In this document: positions 1,928-38,195 of the stretch, in pieces
How the letters are laid out: each line of letters starts with the position of its first letter
How positions within the stretch are numbered: the stretch's first letter is position 1
Assembly (NCBI GenBank): GCA_022538095.1
Contig: JAKYXN010000005.1
Span: 1 to 64,000 of the forward strand
DNA length: 64,000 bases
Origin: Puniceicoccaceae bacterium K14
Lineage (GTDB): Bacteria > Verrucomicrobiota > Verrucomicrobiia > Opitutales > Opitutaceae
Reading direction: 5' to 3'
Notes under the pieces: generated by a model
What the model saw: the letters and a program-made list of their open reading frames with translations, nothing else
What the model was told of the DNA's origin: nothing
Databases searched by the model: none
Position numbers and translations under genes: made by a program

Positions 1928-2896
1928 ATGAAATACCTCCCAGTCATTCTTATATTTTTTCTACTCGCACCAATCGCTCTGCCAGAGGAATCAACACAAA
2001 AAGACTTCGGAAGAGAACTCTCGCACTCCGCTTTATTTGCGCCAAATACGAATTACCCATATTTTGAGCACACCCTTTCGCTTGATACAGACGCTGAGGC
2101 ATATCTTTCAAATGCTGCCTTTTTGGCGCAGTGCAGTATGCTAATTTATGTGACAGACAAAGAGTTTGTCGAAAACGCACTCAGAAAGGCTGGATACAGC
2201 AATATTGAGTATTTTGACGAGAAAGGGGCTTTCGCTTTTCTGGCTGAAGACTCCAAAAATCGAATTCTCATTTTTAGAGGCACTGAACAAACGGATAAAA
2301 ATGACATCCGGGCCAACCTGAAAGTCAGCCTGGTAAAACTTGATCAGCGCGGCCGTGTTCACCGTGGGTTCAAAATTGCTCTGGGTCACATTGAAGAACA
2401 AATCAACAAGTCCTTGGCCAATCGGGAAAACTCCGAACCCAAAACACTTTGGGTTGCGGGGCACAGTCAAGGAGGCGCTTTGGCAACCTTGTGGGCAATA
2501 AAAAACCAAAATAATGCGGAAGGAATTTACTCAATAGGAGCCCCACGAATATCTGATAAAAAGCTCACAGAATCGTTAAATGAAACACTGCCTCTTTTTC
2601 GCTTTGTTAACGACAACGACTATGTACCCAAAATTCCGGTTTCTTTATTCTATCGTCACATCGGAAAAACTTACTTCATCTCTTCGAGTGGTAATCTAGA
2701 AATAGACCCGTCCCATTTATCAAAATTTGGCATGAGCGTATCTGGGTTGAATAAGTACCACGCTGAGGTCTTTCAAGATCGCTGGATGAAAGGCCATTTT
2801 TCAGCCATTCCAATCGACTATTACGCAGATCATTCGCCTCTTTTGTATGTGGAAGCCTTATTGCAATTATGTCTTAGTGAAAAGACTACAAACTAA
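1928..2896 (+). CDS. Exported class 3 lipase-family hydrolase
   Basis: An open frame runs from 1850, but the ATG at 1928 is the better start because it opens directly with a clean signal peptide (MKYLPVILIF...IALPEE). The 322-residue product carries class 3 lipase landmarks: FRGTE near residue 117 (oxyanion region), VHRGF near 144, the nucleophile motif GHSQGG with Ser180, an Asp in the DNDYVPKIP segment and a late His. Family members cleave ester bonds of acylglycerols and related lipids outside the cytoplasm. Its 3' end overlaps the convergent membrane-protein gene by 11 bases. Confidence 0.82.
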   Translation: MKYLPVILIFFLLAPIALPEESTQKDFGRELSHSALFAPNTNYPYFEHTLSLDTDAEAYLSNAAFLAQCSMLIYVTDKEFVENALRKAGYSNIEYFDEKGAFAFLAEDSKNRILIFRGTEQTDKNDIRANLKVSLVKLDQRGRVHRGFKIALGHIEEQINKSLANRENSEPKTLWVAGHSQGGALATLWAIKNQNNAEGIYSIGAPRISDKKLTESLNETLPLFRFVNDNDYVPKIPVSLFYRHIGKTYFISSSGNLEIDPSHLSKFGMSVSGLNKYHAEVFQDRWMKGHFSAIPIDYYADHSPLLYVEALLQLCLSEKTTN

Positions 2897-3194
2897 AATT
2901 ACACTTCCTACAGAAAGAGAAACGCCACACAACAGCCACCACCAGCAAGGAAATGAAAATGATCGGGTAGAGAACACCATCTAGTATACGAGCTCCCTCA
3001 TGATTGAGGAGGTGCAACATTGTGCTAAACTCTACCCCCTCTATGCCACAAATATCCTCGACTCCAAGTCCGAGCAAAATAGAGACATAAGCCAATAGAC
3101 AAACAAAGCATTTAGGGAGCAGAAGAAAACACAGGATGCCACTAGTCCACTTCAAAATCCTTTTAATGGTTCGATACACTGGGACAGTGAGCAT
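2886..3194 (-). CDS. Small membrane protein with PKC-x2-C motif
   Basis: The product has about 102 residues and two or three hydrophobic segments. The first is preceded by the motif LLPKCFVCLLAY, resembling small uncharacterised membrane proteins with a PKCxxC-LAAY signature; this comparison is from memory. A distant similarity to MerC-type metal proteins is possible but unproven. The start is ATG at 3194 or the GTG at 3197, whose G is shared with the TAG stop of the DUF899 gene. Either way translation is probably coupled to that gene. The terminal FCRKC adds a second Cys pair, which suggests metal binding or redox function. Confidence 0.6.
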   Translation of the reverse strand: MLTVPVYRTIKRILKWTSGILCFLLLPKCFVCLLAYVSILLGLGVEDICGIEGVEFSTMLHLLNHEGARILDGVLYPIIFISLLVVAVVWRFSFCRKCNFSL

Positions 3195-3196
3195 CA

Positions 3197-3913
3197 CTAC
3201 CCTTCGTATTTATCGTGATGACGCATCCATTCCATAGTGAACGATAAGTCTTTCTCATCGCGTCCTTTCGGAACAATATCTAGATAATTGTAGACGCTAA
3301 ACATCATATCCAATCCTCGAGCGAAGCTGGAATAAGTGTGATACACTTTACCATCTTCTCCCCTAGCAAAAACACTAATTCCGTGGGCGTCTTCTACAGG
3401 ATAAGGATTTTGGCCGTAATTGTATTCAGTGGTACCCTTCTCAACGACTTCTGGGTCGAAGTGTACGTTAAAATCCTTGTTGAATTCAGATTCACACGAA
3501 GACACCCATTTAAAGTTCCACCCCATGCGTTCCTTGAAAGGCTTCAATTCGGATAAGGGCGCTCTGGATACGGAAACGAGAGTTGTATCTCGGCCACCCA
3601 AATGCTTTATCGCCGACTCGAACCCATCCGCTATACAGGAGCAGCTCTTACACCCTTCACCCCAACCAGGGCCAAACATAAAATGGTAAACGATTAGCTG
3701 GCTTTTACCTTCAAAAAGCTCAACCAATGTCTGAGACCCATTATCTGTTTCGAAGGTGTAAGATTCACTTACTTCAACCCAAGGCAATTCCCTTCTTTCT
3801 TGACTCAATTCGTCTCTTAACCGGGTAAACTTTTTTTCGTTCTCCAAGTGCTTCTTACGAGCAATTAGCCATTCTTCTCTCGTTGCAATTTTTTGATCTG
3901 TAGTTGAGTTCAT
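3197..3913 (-). CDS. DUF899 thioredoxin-like protein
   Basis: The 238-residue product matches DUF899, a thioredoxin-fold family. Visible hallmarks are the N-terminal TREEWLIARKKHLENEK helix, the PWVEV and YTFET strands, and YHFMFGPGWGEGCKSCSC near residue 80, where the Cys cluster corresponds to the family's GCxxCS site. A second Cys follows in WVSSCESEF. There is no signal peptide, so it is cytoplasmic. The biochemical function of DUF899 is not established; a redox role is inferred from the fold. It is the middle gene of a minus-strand group (ABM monooxygenase, DUF899, small membrane protein) divergent from YCII and an ECF42 sigma factor, a recurrent neighbourhood for these families. Confidence 0.85.
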   Translation of the reverse strand: MNSTTDQKIATREEWLIARKKHLENEKKFTRLRDELSQERRELPWVEVSESYTFETDNGSQTLVELFEGKSQLIVYHFMFGPGWGEGCKSCSCIADGFESAIKHLGGRDTTLVSVSRAPLSELKPFKERMGWNFKWVSSCESEFNKDFNVHFDPEVVEKGTTEYNYGQNPYPVEDAHGISVFARGEDGKVYHTYSSFARGLDMMFSVYNYLDIVPKGRDEKDLSFTMEWMRHHDKYEG

Positions 3914-3937
3914 GGAATATTTTTATGTAATTAATCT

Positions 3938-4309
3938 TTAGTTACGTATTATCGTGTAAATTGAAGGATAGTGCGGCATTTCATCCGGGAAACCGTCTCC
4001 TATTGCCTTCAGCTCTTCGCTTTGAAGAGCTGACATAAAGGCTTCTGCCGATTTCCAGCGAGCGACATTGATCAAAACAAACTTTGCGCTTGGATCCATC
4101 GATTGGTGAAGCGCCGTTCCCAGATAGCCGGGTTGCTTCCTAAAGTACTCAGCATACTTATCCCATATACCGAGAGCCTCTTCCAAGCGACCCTCTGGGA
4201 TTTCGATCGGGTTTATGACAGTTACCTCGGTCGCCTCTTTTTCAATCTGCTCAGCCGAAGCAAACCCCGAAAGGACAAAAATCATTAAAAGTGTTCTGAC
4301 TAATTTCAT
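3938..4309 (-). CDS. Exported antibiotic biosynthesis monooxygenase (ABM) domain protein
   Basis: The 123-residue product has a signal peptide (MKLVRTLLMIFVLSGFASA) followed by one ABM ferredoxin-like domain. Strand 1 reads EVTVINPIEIPEG, then a helix with LGIWDKYAEYFRKQPGYLGTALH, and FVLINVARWKSAEAF. ABM proteins include quinone and polyketide oxygenases that need no cofactor, as well as heme-degrading enzymes. Export to the periplasm is unusual for the fold and may suggest a scavenging or quinone-detoxifying role. It lies 24 bases before the DUF899 gene and is the first gene transcribed leftwards from the dyad-containing intergenic region. Confidence 0.75.
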   Translation of the reverse strand: MKLVRTLLMIFVLSGFASAEQIEKEATEVTVINPIEIPEGRLEEALGIWDKYAEYFRKQPGYLGTALHQSMDPSAKFVLINVARWKSAEAFMSALQSEELKAIGDGFPDEMPHYPSIYTIIRN

Positions 4310-4370
4310 ATTTGTAATTGGTTACAACATGTGATCTTCCCCAATTATCAATCTTCAGGAATTCATTTAA

Positions 4371-4427
4371 TTAACCTTTTTGTTAAATGTAGAAATGGGA
4401 GTCAACTTTATTTAACCTTTTGGTTAA
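4371..4427. promoter_or_regulatory. Two-copy TTAACC dyad operator between divergent genes
   Basis: TTAACC-TTTTT-GTTAA lies at 4371-4386 and TTAACC-TTTT-GGTTAA at 4412-4427. Their centres are 41 bases apart, close to four helical turns, which would put two bound dimers on the same DNA face. They lie between the ABM/DUF899 genes (minus) and YCII/ECF42 genes (plus). The symmetry suits a winged-helix repressor such as an ArsR-family protein, but no ArsR gene is present in the window. Function is inferred. Confidence 0.5.
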
Positions 4428-4530
4428 TATTTAATTTTCTAGGTAATTTGAAGTTTATGTCGAAATTCAAATTTCTATTCGTCTACCTCTTAGAACCTAA
4501 TATAAATCAAACCAGTAACCCAAAGCACCG

Positions 4531-4893
4531 ATGCAATACCTACTTCTCATATACTCTGAAGAATCGAAATCCATCCAAGCCAGCGATCCACGGTATCCTG
4601 GTTTAGTCGAAGAGCACCGCGCCCTGATCAAAGAGACAACCGACAAAGGAATCCTTTTGGGAGCCGAACCATTGGAGCCGACAAGCACAGCTACGACTGT
4701 TCGCGTTCGGGAGGAAAAAATTCAAACAACCGACGGTCCTTTCGCTGAGACAAAGGAGCAATTAGCGGGCTACTACTTGATAGAGTGCCAGAACCTAGAT
4801 GAAGCCATCGAATACGCTGCGAGAATTCCCAACGCCCGATCAGGTTCGATAGAAATTCGTCCACTAATGAAAATCCCCGAACCGAGTAATTAA
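4531..4893 (+). CDS. YCII-related (DGPF) domain protein
   Basis: The 120-residue product is a typical single-domain YCII/DGPF protein: MQYLLLIYSEE at the start, a central LLGAEPLEP and the signature TDGPFAETKEQLAGYYLIE near residues 68-86, ending with IEIRPLM. The fold is a dimeric ferredoxin-like barrel. These small proteins very often sit beside ECF41/42 sigma factors, as here, where the sigma gene starts nine bases downstream. Its enzymatic activity is unknown. The long upstream region with two TTAACC dyads probably controls this gene and the sigma factor together. Confidence 0.9.
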   Translation: MQYLLLIYSEESKSIQASDPRYPGLVEEHRALIKETTDKGILLGAEPLEPTSTATTVRVREEKIQTTDGPFAETKEQLAGYYLIECQNLDEAIEYAARIPNARSGSIEIRPLMKIPEPSN

Positions 4894-4902
4894 GCCATCT
4901 CA

Positions 4903-6153
4903 GTGCTCCGAAACAAAACAAGTGAGACTATAGAAAAAACGGTACGAGAGGAATGGAGCCAAACCCTCTCCGCACTTGTTTATCGAATACACGACTTCCA
5001 GCTTGCTGAAGATGCTCTACAGGATGCGATACTCAGCGCATGGAACAGTTGGCCATATTCTGGCATCCCCAAGAACCCACGTGCCTGGCTCCTCCAAGTC
5101 GCTAAACGAAAAGCCATCGATCAAATTCGAAGAAAAGAGAGTTTCGCTAAGAAACAATCTAGCATAGCCCTTCTTTCAGAGCTGGAACAAGAACAAGGAG
5201 AGCACCGAACCGATATGGAGATTCCAGACGAACGGCTACGAATGATATTCACTTGCTGCCATCCAGCAATCGATAAACGTAGTTCAGTAGCCCTTACACT
5301 TCGCACTGTTGCCGGATTGGAAACTCGAGAAATCGCGAAAGCCTTTCTCACCGAAGAAAGCGCAATGGGCCAACGCCTCACCCGGGTTAAGCGAAAAATT
5401 CGCGATGCCGGCATTCCCTACCGCGTTCCCCCTCCACACCTCTGGCAAGAACGGCTCGAAGCTGTCTTATCCGTACTCTACTTTATTTTCAATGAAGGCT
5501 ACCTGGCAAGCTCGGGGGATGGGCTCCTTAGAAGCAATCTTTGCCTAGAAGCTATCCGTCTTGCGCGGGTCCTCAGTAAACTCTCCCCCGACGAACCAGA
5601 AGTAGACGGCTTGCTCGCACTAATGTTGCTTCACGACTCTCGCCGCCCCGCTCGCACTAATAAAGCGGGCGCCATGATCTCGCTAGAAGATCAAGATCGT
5701 AGTCTATGGATACGCGAAAATATAGAGGAAGGCGATACAATCCTTAGAAGAATTCTTCCAAAGCGAAGAATTGGCCCGTACCAAATTCAAGCGGCCGTGA
5801 GCGCCGTACACGCCCATGCTCCTGACTGGAAGTCTACAGACTGGCCCCAAATCGCCCAACTCTACCGCACACTTTATCAATACAGTCCATCGTCTGTTGT
5901 GAGACTCAATGAAGCTGTCGCTATCTCAATGATACAGGGTCCCCAAGCGGGGCTAAAATTGCTTCAAGAGCTAGAGGAACAAGGTACACTTGAAAAATAC
6001 CAGCCATTCTACGCCGCCAAAGCTGATTTGCTACGTCAACTCAATCGTTACGATGAGGCCGAACGTGCCTACGAAATCGCAATTTCCAAGAGTGCGAATC
6101 CAGCAGAAAAGGATATACTAAGAAAAAGACTCCAGCATCTTAAAAAAAATTAG
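4903..6153 (+). CDS. ECF42-type RNA polymerase sigma factor with C-terminal TPR-like extension
   Basis: The 416-residue product has sigma-70 region 2 at about residues 15-85 (LVYRIHDFQLAEDALQDA, then IPKNPRAWLLQVAKRKAIDQ), region 4 at about 115-170 (RSSVALTLRTVAGLETREIAKAF), and a long C-terminal part of about 230 residues with helical, TPR-like repeats. This length and order are characteristic of the ECF42 group, usually encoded next to DGPF/YCII proteins. It starts at GTG 4903, nine bases after the YCII stop, so translation coupling is likely. In ECF42 the C-terminal extension is thought to replace an anti-sigma factor; none is encoded nearby. Confidence 0.9.
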   Translation: MLRNKTSETIEKTVREEWSQTLSALVYRIHDFQLAEDALQDAILSAWNSWPYSGIPKNPRAWLLQVAKRKAIDQIRRKESFAKKQSSIALLSELEQEQGEHRTDMEIPDERLRMIFTCCHPAIDKRSSVALTLRTVAGLETREIAKAFLTEESAMGQRLTRVKRKIRDAGIPYRVPPPHLWQERLEAVLSVLYFIFNEGYLASSGDGLLRSNLCLEAIRLARVLSKLSPDEPEVDGLLALMLLHDSRRPARTNKAGAMISLEDQDRSLWIRENIEEGDTILRRILPKRRIGPYQIQAAVSAVHAHAPDWKSTDWPQIAQLYRTLYQYSPSSVVRLNEAVAISMIQGPQAGLKLLQELEEQGTLEKYQPFYAAKADLLRQLNRYDEAERAYEIAISKSANPAEKDILRKRLQHLKKN

Positions 6154-6247
6154 TCCAGCATGTCGAAATGACGGATTGGCAATCGTCCTCTATATAAGCG
6201 ACCACACCATCGTCGCAGGATAATAGAAGAAGAAAACGATCATCACC

Positions 6248-6652
6248 ATGTCAGAAAAATGCGAACACAACCACGGAGACTTCAGCTGGAACGAGCTCTC
6301 TGTTACCGATCCCCAACAAGCAATCCACTTTTACCAAAAAGTATTTGGGTGGACGATCGAAGAAATGGACATGCCAAATGGCAAGTACTACATTCTATTC
6401 AATGGAGCAGAAAAAATCGGTGGCATCACCGCAAAAGATCCTAAAGAAGCGAATTCGCCTACAGCCTGGATGCCTTATATTACAGTCAACGATGTTGATA
6501 AAGCTGCAGCACAGATCGTAAAGCTTGGAGGGTCTATTATTCTACCACCACAAGATATTCCCGTAGAAAATGGGCCTCGCCTAACAATCCTTAAAGACCC
6601 AATGGGTGCTACGCTCGGAGCAATCACATACGCTAACGACACCGCATCATAA
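6248..6652 (+). CDS. VOC-family (glyoxalase/bleomycin-resistance fold) protein
   Basis: The 134-residue product has the paired beta-alpha-beta-beta-beta modules of the vicinal oxygen chelate family: FSWNELSVTDPQQAIHFYQKVFGW at the start, and a second module beginning AWMPYITVNDVDKAAAQIVKLGG, closing with LKDPMGATLGAI. It is closest to the CFP-30B-like VOC branch. Members bind small molecules or metal and perform lyase, isomerase or sequestration roles; substrate here is unknown. An N-terminal CEHNHGD segment could bind metal. It follows the ECF42 sigma gene by 94 bases and may belong to its regulon. Confidence 0.85.
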   Translation: MSEKCEHNHGDFSWNELSVTDPQQAIHFYQKVFGWTIEEMDMPNGKYYILFNGAEKIGGITAKDPKEANSPTAWMPYITVNDVDKAAAQIVKLGGSIILPPQDIPVENGPRLTILKDPMGATLGAITYANDTAS

Positions 6653-6676
6653 GTAAACTACGCACAGTGCTTACCT

Positions 6677-7369
6677 ATGGCTAAAACAATTTCCGCCTTT
6701 AAAGGCTTTCCAACATCAGGCATCGAGCTACTAGCCGAGCTTCCTGCTAGAGACAAAAAATGGTTCGAAGACTGGCGAGACCTCTATGAAGAAAGCCTCC
6801 TCCAACCAGCCCGCGAATTAGTAGTCTCTCTGGGAGAAAAACTTCAAACATCAGTTTCGTCGTCAATTACAGCGGAGCCAAGTATCAACGGATCTATTTC
6901 TCCTATTTTTAGGGATCTTAGATTCAGTGCCGACAAATCGGTATTCAAAGACAATCTGATGCTCAATTTTTGGGAAGCTCCATCCAAGAAAGCAGGCCCC
7001 ACACTTCGGCTACGAATCACACCGAAAATGATCGGTTTTGCGACTGGATCAGTTTTTGACACGCAGCCTCGATTAGACAAATGGAGATCAGCTCTAGACA
7101 ACGACATATCAGGGAATTCATTACAGTCATCGATCAATCAATTGGCAAACAATCAGCTCATCGACATTAGTGAGCCCGAACTCAAAAAGCCTCCTCGTCC
7201 TTACACCAACGAACACCCTCGGGCAGACCTTCTCCGACGAAAGAGCTTTCAGGTTCGATGGCAGGAGAAGACACCCGATTCGATCCATACGGCTAACTTT
7301 GTCGATTGGTGCGACGAACGATTCGCAAAGTTGAAAGACCTCCACACCTGGCTTAAAAACAATCTCTAA
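6677..7369 (+). CDS. DUF2461 (TIGR02453) family protein
   Basis: The 230-residue product fits the DUF2461 family: an opening FKGFPTSGIELLAELPARDKKWFEDWRDLYEE that resembles the family's usual F-x-F-L-x2-L-x2-N-N-x-R-x-WF pattern, then PARELVVSLGEKL, a central strand set around FRDLRFSADKSVFKDNLML, and a C-terminal helix ending WLKNNL. It has no signal peptide. The family's function is unknown. The gene begins 24 bases after the VOC stop, so an operon from YCII through this gene is plausible. Confidence 0.78.
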   Translation: MAKTISAFKGFPTSGIELLAELPARDKKWFEDWRDLYEESLLQPARELVVSLGEKLQTSVSSSITAEPSINGSISPIFRDLRFSADKSVFKDNLMLNFWEAPSKKAGPTLRLRITPKMIGFATGSVFDTQPRLDKWRSALDNDISGNSLQSSINQLANNQLIDISEPELKKPPRPYTNEHPRADLLRRKSFQVRWQEKTPDSIHTANFVDWCDERFAKLKDLHTWLKNNL

Positions 7370-7392
7370 TCTCTATAACCCAATCCACTCCT

Positions 7393-7731
7393 ATGTCATC
7401 CGAAAAAGGCGAAAAGAAATTTTGGACAATTGCAGAATCTCTCTATTCTGATCCTTCAGTAAAAGAAGGCACCATGATGGGCTTCAAATGCTTGCGCGTT
7501 AACAAGGCATTTTTTGCGACCCTCGACCACCGATCGGCCGACTTAGTCGTCAAACTTTCCAAAGAGCGCGTAGGCACGCTAATCGAAGAAAAGATCGGGC
7601 TCCCCTTCTCCCCCGCAGGACGCGTATTCAAAGAATGGGTCGCTATCCCTTATGAGCATAATCGCAGATGGACCAAGCTTATGTTAGAAGCTAAAGAATT
7701 CGTGGCTCTGCTTCCGACAAAAAGAAAATAA
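7393..7731 (+). CDS. TfoX N-terminal/MmcQ-YjbR-like protein
   Basis: The 112-residue product resembles the single-domain TfoX_N/YjbR-like group: SVKEGTMMGFKCLRVNKAFFATLD near residues 18-42, followed by LVVKLSKERVGTLIEEKIGLPF and GRVFKEWVAIP. These are small DNA-binding-like or unknown-function proteins that often travel with DUF899, YCII and DUF1801 genes. It is the last gene of the plus-strand run from 4531, 23 bases after DUF2461. No terminator hairpin is obvious in the next 100 bases. Confidence 0.65.
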   Translation: MSSEKGEKKFWTIAESLYSDPSVKEGTMMGFKCLRVNKAFFATLDHRSADLVVKLSKERVGTLIEEKIGLPFSPAGRVFKEWVAIPYEHNRRWTKLMLEAKEFVALLPTKRK

Positions 7732-36954: not shown

Positions 36955-37476
36955 ATGCCCGCGTCAATTCCCATAGAAAAGGTACAAGAGTTTCTCTCCT
37001 CATCTCTCATTAAAGTAATAGAGACGATGATGCGCACAAATTGCACGCTCAAAGGCTGTAAAGGCTACGAGGGCAAAAAAGTTTATAGTCCATCCTTTGG
37101 ACCCAACCCCGAGACCGCTCCCCGAGTGTTTGCTTCGTCGGTCGGATTCGCAGGAGATATGAGCGGCGTCTGCTACCTATTCATGGCAGAGACATTTGCT
37201 TTCGAAGCAGCTAAGAAAATCACTGGACTTGATGATGAAGATTTGGACGCCGACGTTGTCAGAGACGTCTGTGGCGAACTAACAAATATGTTTGCCGGCA
37301 CATTTAAGAACAGCTTAGCCGACCTAGGAATTCCTTCGACCCTTACGATCCCAACGGTTGTGCAAGGTAAGCGAATGGCTATCAGCACCCCGGGATCCGC
37401 TGATCAGTTTCGTTTCAAGTTTGAAGCGGAAGGTTACCCGATTTTTGCAGACCTCTTAGTTTCTGACAGAAACTAG
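36955..37476 (+). CDS. CheX-like chemotaxis phosphatase-family protein
   Basis: The 173-residue product fits the CheC/CheX/FliY family. It has FLSSSLIKVIETMM at the start, a strand set FASSVGFAGDMSGVCYLFM, and a helix with DVVRDVCGELTNMFAGTFKNSLADLG, containing the E-x2-N catalytic pair that positions water for CheY-P dephosphorylation. No chemotaxis genes lie nearby, so it may serve a different receiver-domain protein. Its stop codon overlaps that of the convergent SufR-like gene in the palindrome CTAG. Confidence 0.85.
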   Translation: MPASIPIEKVQEFLSSSLIKVIETMMRTNCTLKGCKGYEGKKVYSPSFGPNPETAPRVFASSVGFAGDMSGVCYLFMAETFAFEAAKKITGLDDEDLDADVVRDVCGELTNMFAGTFKNSLADLGIPSTLTIPTVVQGKRMAISTPGSADQFRFKFEAEGYPIFADLLVSDRN

Positions 37477-38135
37477 GACTCCTTAGATTTAATTTCGTAG
37501 GCACAACGGCGTGCCCCCGAAACAATGTGCTCAGTACGTTCTACGGTCACTTTATCGCCCAAGCAGGTGCGAAAAATTTCCAACTCATTGGAGCAGAGTC
37601 GCTCGCAGGCAGTCGCTGCATCGCAAATCGGACAGTGATTTTCCGACAGCAGAAAAGAACCTGAACCAAGATCTTCATACTCTGCCATGTACCCCTCAGC
37701 TGTACGGAGTTCAACCAAACGCTTTACACGTCCGCATACGTCAACGATTCCATTGAGCTCTTTTTGGTACGCTTCGAGTTGCTGTGCCTTGCGAAGATCA
37801 AGTGCTCGATCAACCGCATCCTGTCCGCAAGATTCCCTAACCGAATCTAAGAACCCAACCGCTAAATCACGGTGACGATCTGGAAAGTGACGCGAAGCCA
37901 CATTTGTTAGTTTCCAAACCTTTGTCGGACGCCCCACACCCATAGCACGATCGCTACTAGAGACATCGTCGCTCTCCTGCATCTCATGGAGATGTTGCCT
38001 CACCGCCATTGTTGAAATGCTAAGCGATTTCGCCATTTCAGAACTCGTGAGCTCGCCTTGGAGCTTCAGCATTTGCAAGATAGCCCTACGAGTCTCCAAA
38101 TGAGCCCCCTTATAACTACCTTCCTTCGTTCCCAT
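37473..38135 (-). CDS. SufR-like Fe-S winged-helix regulator
   Basis: ATG 38135 (MGTKEGSYKG) is chosen because the extension to 38174 is hydrophobic and unlike the family. The 220-residue product begins with a winged helix (RRAILQMLKLQGELTSSEMAKSLSISTMAVRQHLHEM) with the GVGRPTKVWKLT wing. The C-terminal part holds cysteines CPICDAATACERLC, FRTCLG and SGARRCAYEI, in the region where SufR-type repressors bind a [4Fe-4S] cluster. SufR controls Fe-S assembly genes, but no suf or isc genes are present here. The target may be elsewhere or be exonuclease III upstream. Confidence 0.8.
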   Translation of the reverse strand: MGTKEGSYKGAHLETRRAILQMLKLQGELTSSEMAKSLSISTMAVRQHLHEMQESDDVSSSDRAMGVGRPTKVWKLTNVASRHFPDRHRDLAVGFLDSVRESCGQDAVDRALDLRKAQQLEAYQKELNGIVDVCGRVKRLVELRTAEGYMAEYEDLGSGSFLLSENHCPICDAATACERLCSNELEIFRTCLGDKVTVERTEHIVSGARRCAYEIKSKES

Positions 38136-38195
38136 ACTTAATAACAAAAGAATTTTCTTTGCTATTAGATGCAAAGAGAAAACGACGTTTCCGCT

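Follow-up and report, generated by a model that had tools for sequence, protein, structure and literature searches.

Two divergent gene sets lie back to back in the stretch of Puniceicoccaceae bacterium K14 analyzed here (contig JAKYXN010000005.1, positions 1 to 64,000; hereafter the window): a minus-strand arm led by ABM and DUF899 genes, and a plus-strand arm built around a sigma factor of the ECF42 type. Between them lie two dyads of the form TTAACC-N4-GGTTAA. We consider it quite probable that two separate switches meet at this point, an ArsR-family repressor encoded on another contig (C307) acting on the ABM-DUF899 arm, and ECF42 acting on the plus arm independently of the dyads. The dyads themselves are very probably operators of the ArsR-family repressor encoded on C307, as judged from where the motif recurs. 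Each switch belongs to a kind already known.

The preliminary description of this locus had noted both dyads, and they are indeed where it placed them, in the same 221-bp intergenic region with centers 41 bp apart, close to four helical turns. One dyad is perfect and the other carries a single mismatch. When the intergenic region was shuffled 20,000 times with dinucleotides preserved and dyads were scored at 11 or more matches out of 12, one dyad appeared in 55 shuffles and two dyads in none. A pattern search over the 5.72-Mb genome found the exact motif three times, once in the window (the perfect dyad), once on contig C289 and once on C307, and 12 sites when up to one mismatch was allowed. 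The C289 copy lies inside a gene and was rejected as an operator, as were the one-mismatch sites outside the window and C307 pairs, all of which are inside or 3' of genes. These two pairs are thus the only promoter-located ones. Such a genome-wide search had been called for in the preliminary description, which suspected a distant ArsR-type regulator; the few promoter-located copies do sit at a predicted regulator, and the arsR gene of C307 gives that suspicion a named candidate.

The C307 gene encodes a small winged-helix protein that scores above the family cut-offs of HTH_20, HTH_5 and NF033788, and it overlaps an AHSA1 (AHSA1/SRPBCC) gene. The exact dyad (C307:2636-2651) spans its start codon, and a second dyad, matching at 11 of 12 positions, lies 49 bp upstream of the first. 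Neither this protein nor its counterpart in genome G011 contains any cysteine, and the metal-binding cysteine motif of the ArsR/CadC subtype is absent from both, so that the C307 protein does not count among the thiol metal sensors of that subtype. About ten HTH_5/HTH_20 proteins are encoded in the genome, and the only one in the window is a cysteine-rich regulator of 233 aa (37473-38174, minus strand). It was rejected as the regulator of the dyads, since no dyad lies nearby and it is a different type of protein from the small ArsR/SmtB regulators, so that the earlier statement that the window holds no ArsR-type repressor was essentially right. Its C-terminal cysteine cluster, CPICDAATAC...C...C, resembles that of SufR-kind iron-sulphur regulators.

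The pairing of this regulator with this operator extends far beyond one genome. We searched 80 homologues of the C307 ArsR from many phyla for a dyad matching at 10 or more of 12 positions, between 250 bp upstream of the gene and 40 bp into it. A dyad was found upstream in 74 of the 80, compared with 1 of 79 downstream control regions, which is the expected mark of autoregulation. Members of the Opitutales mostly carry pairs of dyads 48-53 bp apart, the second at the ATG, whereas in Lentzea and several other lineages two dyads are 16 bp apart. In Lentzea and its relatives (L187-L223) the dyad takes the form of a head-to-tail pair upstream of arsR, with a spacing of exactly 16 bp.

In further support of the pairing, the operator type follows the protein sequence. 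We sorted 30 order-level ArsR homologues by the recognition-helix residue just before the conserved HL/HM. Among the 19 proteins with K or R at this position, 12 had TTAACC-N4-GGTTAA at 11 or more of 12 positions and none had TTAAG-N6-CTTAA; among the 11 with Q, the counts were 0 and 10, respectively (Fisher p = 6e-4 for the split). At the level of single homologues, S-Q-H proteins (L100, L106-L109, L111-L114, L118) go with TTAAG-N6-CTTAA and S-K-H proteins (L090-L104) with TTAACC-N4-GGTTAA. Because these homologues are related by descent, the split is a correlation and not proof of a code.

The same motif also leads from the regulator to DUF899. We scanned 150 same-family genomes for exact dyads and placed the sites by tblastn and open reading frame (ORF) context. 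The 38 exact sites comprise 23 at arsR, one at AHSA1, four that precede DUF899 genes or operons, and ten elsewhere, mostly inside genes. The four DUF899 cases come from the window (genome G000), G011, G263 and G280, which represent three genera (G263 belongs to the same genus as G011), and in all four arsR-AHSA1 is on a different contig from DUF899. Only two exact sites occur in the 5.4 Mb of G011, one at arsR-AHSA1 and the other at DUF899. Conservation of the dyads, proposed in the preliminary description as a test of its idea, is thus found at comparable promoters in relatives.

Which of the two arms do the dyads serve? On the minus strand the window reads TTAACCAAAAGGTTAA-ataaag-TTGACT...TTAACAAAAAGGTTAA, with O2 as the upstream and O1 as the downstream dyad of the promoter. 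In nine of 13 paired-dyad promoters TTGAC begins 3-9 nt past the upstream dyad (in the remaining four, TTGC or TTGT takes its place), and in arsR promoters it commonly lies ~28 nt before the start-proximal dyad, so that, taken as a -35 box, it would place the -10 just ahead of that dyad. TTGAC is likewise present at the G280 and G263 DUF899 promoters, and all four DUF899 promoters, whose dyads are 41-45 bp apart, read dyad-TTGAC-dyad. Since in the window this layout is seen on the minus strand only, that is, towards ABM-DUF899, it is most likely the promoter of this operon that the dyads serve.

The plus arm appears to have its own means of control. Two ECF42-type promoter motifs, which the preliminary description lacks, precede YCII-ECF42 and VOC-DUF2461-YjbR. 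The sigma factor (416 aa) matches Sigma70_r2, weakly Sigma70_r4_2, and DUF6596 and TPR_16 in Pfam; the YCII gene ends 10 bp ahead of its start codon, and no anti-sigma gene was found among its neighbors. ECF42 is presumably controlled through its C-terminal extension together with YCII (PMC8999054). The nearest ECF42 relative, in G011, is 68% identical. At its locus the two promoters are found at the corresponding positions, along with YCII, VOC and YjbR genes, but ABM, DUF899 and dyads are absent. None of 16 ECF42 loci other than that of the window carried dyads. In Sinorhizobium meliloti the mapped promoters of RpoE10, an ECF42 protein, have the form TGTCGG-N17-CGTC, and genes with glyoxalase-like domains are among its targets (PMC6180224). 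As the promoter motifs, their conservation in G011 and the promoters and targets of RpoE10 all agree, ECF42 likely controls both plus-arm promoters. The promoter pattern has 51 matches genome-wide on both strands; all 29 of the other matches examined in this genome lie inside ORFs of at least 80 aa, some of which are possibly spurious. Elsewhere in the genome (L089:5716-6969, contig C187, minus strand) lies another ECF42-type sigma factor gene, also accompanied by a YCII-like gene; its product is 36% identical to the sigma factor of the window.

The dyads, the promoter motifs, their layout and the pairing of regulator and operator are seen directly in the sequences and comparisons; from these we infer how the locus may work, with regard to ArsR binding, repression, direction of control and autoregulation. 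An ArsR dimer made from C307 would bind each dyad, placing both dimers on the same face of the helix. The dyads would flank the TTGACT -35-like box, with the lower one (4371-4386) lying over the -10 and start region of the operon made up of the ABM, DUF899 and membrane-protein genes, and binding would keep this operon off. The repressor would also act on its own arsR-AHSA1 operon through the similar dyad pair there, and some signal would release it, so that AHSA1 and the ABM-DUF899 operon might be induced together. ECF42 would transcribe YCII-ECF42 and VOC-DUF2461-YjbR from its two promoters with no role for the dyads, and no shared control of both arms would be needed.

It would be tempting to see in the dyads a single ArsR-type repressor that controls both arms and gates ECF42 expression too, in line with the preliminary description, which took the symmetry to point to a common repressor or to joint control. 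The dyads do occupy the one intergenic region that both arms share, the nearer of them ends 30 bp ahead of the -35 box of ECF42, and a weak housekeeping YCII promoter could exist upstream of the ECF promoter. However, the layout fits arsR and DUF899 promoters on the minus strand only, and the nearest dyad precedes the expected start of ECF42 transcription by ~60-80 bp, beyond the polymerase footprint that blocking repressors normally cover. Moreover, it is DUF899 and arsR that the dyads accompany in relatives, and G011 keeps both ECF42 promoters at a locus without dyads or DUF899 while its dyads are found at arsR and DUF899 elsewhere. We therefore regard control of both arms as improbable. Somewhat less probable still is that another dimeric regulator (an ArsR paralogue, or a protein of the MarR or TetR type) binds the dyads, with the C307 arsR merely another of its targets. 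Several regulator families could recognize palindromes of such a size, and the genome offers the roughly ten HTH_5/HTH_20 proteins mentioned above; against this stand the presence of the dyad upstream of nearly all homologues of this ArsR type across phyla, and the sister clade, in which the operator is TTAAG-N6-CTTAA and the recognition helix has Q in place of K. It seems a very remote possibility that the dyads have no regulator and are palindromes due to chance or to AT-rich DNA structure. The intergenic region is 71% A+T and the exact motif is genome-wide no more frequent than a control pattern (3 and 3), but a pair of dyads never arose in the shuffles, the other promoter-located copies are at the matching ArsR, and the comparative placement holds in three genera.

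Several observations nevertheless count against two back-to-back switches with a C307-encoded repressor. The reversed control motif occurs at 19 sites in the 150 same-family genomes (hand count) against the 38 of the real one, and some exact dyads must therefore be due to chance. The spacing of dyads in DUF899 promoters differs from that in arsR promoters. The DUF899 protein of the window is in a different subfamily from those of G011, G263 and G280 (about 40% identity), so that promoter layout, and not orthology in the strict sense, carries the case. The source genome is nearly alone in having the ABM gene: among the same-family genomes a single homologue outside the window was found, in G032, at a locus with neither dyads nor DUF899 nearby. 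No convincing -10 box is visible in the minus-arm promoter, and a scan of the intergenic region with the sigma-70 consensus gave nothing above shuffles. As for the plus arm, autoactivation by ECF42 is plausible, not certain; the S. meliloti ECF42 operon showed none (PMC6180224).

Compared with known systems, the C307 gene resembles AHSA1-linked ArsR/SmtB autorepressors (HTH_5/HTH_20; NF033788) in its small winged helix, its overlapping AHSA1 gene and the inverted repeat at its own start, with apparent autoregulation, but differs in that its product is free of cysteine and that ABM-DUF899, the operon it is predicted to control, is not linked to arsR. The plus arm shares with the ECF42 modules of S. 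meliloti (RpoE10), Streptomyces venezuelae (the Sven_0747 group) and Pseudomonas putida (ECF-10) a YCII gene directly upstream, the DUF6596/TPR extension, the lack of an anti-sigma gene, TGTCG-N16/17-CGTC promoters and a VOC/glyoxalase-like target; unlike them, it diverges from an unrelated operon predicted to be ArsR-controlled, and carries DUF2461 and YjbR genes. The arsR-AHSA1-DUF899 clusters of other Opitutales (for example G014, G223 and G070) contain the same families, close by coordinates. There, however, the genes are clustered, the ArsR is mostly SAPAISQHL and the operator is TTAAG-N6-CTTAA, whereas in the source genome DUF899 is on another contig from arsR and the operator is TTAACC-N4-GGTTAA.

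The literature searched, which left most subscription journals outside its coverage, yielded nothing relevant on ArsR with AHSA1 or DUF899, or on TTAACC with ArsR; within that coverage, the operator assignment for this uncharacterized ArsR-AHSA1 family seems new. We speculate further, with confidence evenly balanced, that TTAACC-N4-GGTTAA could serve as operator for a cysteine-free ArsR-AHSA1 family spread across phyla. In this family one helix residue would largely set specificity (S-K-H for TTAACC, S-Q-H for TTAAG), and its Opitutaceae regulon may reach unlinked DUF899 operons, one of them back to back with an ECF42 module. An orphan palindrome would thus become a named regulator-operator pair with its regulator on another contig, and the ABM, DUF899 and AHSA1 proteins, whose functions are vague, would gain a common putative regulator and with it a handle on the inducing signal. 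The K/Q correlation could offer a cheap rule of specificity. Because the ECF42 module has its own promoters, adjacency at this locus need not mean co-regulation.

Table 1. Features of the divergent locus and of the candidate regulator gene (window positions unless a contig is given).
Feature	Position	Strand	Basis and remarks
Small membrane protein, LLPKC motif	2886-3197	minus	ORF; overlaps end of DUF899 gene
DUF899 (thioredoxin-like) protein	3197-3913	minus	Pfam DUF899 8.4e-91
ABM-domain protein	3938-4309	minus	Pfam ABM 1.4e-11; apparent signal peptide; first gene of minus arm
Operator dyad O1, putative ArsR-type	4371-4386	none	TTAACCTTTTTGTTAA; 11/12, one mismatch to TTAACC-N4-GGTTAA
TTGACT, presumed -35 of ABM-DUF899 promoter	4400-4405	minus	6 nt after O2 end on minus strand
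Operator dyad O2, putative ArsR-type	4412-4427	none	TTAACCTTTTGGTTAA; 12/12, perfect
ECF42-type promoter for YCII-ECF42	4458-4483	plus	motif TGTCGA-N16-CGTC; kept in G011
YCII-domain protein	4531-4893	plus	Pfam YCII 9.4e-18
ECF42-type sigma factor	4903-6153	plus	GTG start; DUF6596/TPR C-terminal extension
Second ECF42-type promoter, for VOC-DUF2461-YjbR	6161-6187	plus	motif TGTCGA-N17-CGTC; kept in G011
VOC/glyoxalase-like protein	6248-6652	plus	Pfam Glyoxalase 2e-10
DUF2461 protein	6677-7369	plus	Pfam DUF2461 2.5e-29
YjbR/MmcQ-like protein	7393-7731	plus	Pfam YjbR 21.2 bits, under cut-off of 30.1
ArsR-family gene, 115 aa	G000:C307:2296-2643	minus	HTH_20 38.8 bits (cut-off 27); HTH_5 31.9 (22); NF033788 74.4 (55)

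The gene families named in the preliminary description were borne out by Pfam, except that the membrane-protein gene, for which a Pfam search gave no family match, lies just outside the start it gave for the block (3197). DUF899 genes are found within a few kb of ECF42/YCII genes elsewhere too, at L141 (G039, contig C4) and L046 (G007), and these neighborhoods indicate that the two gene sets meet repeatedly.

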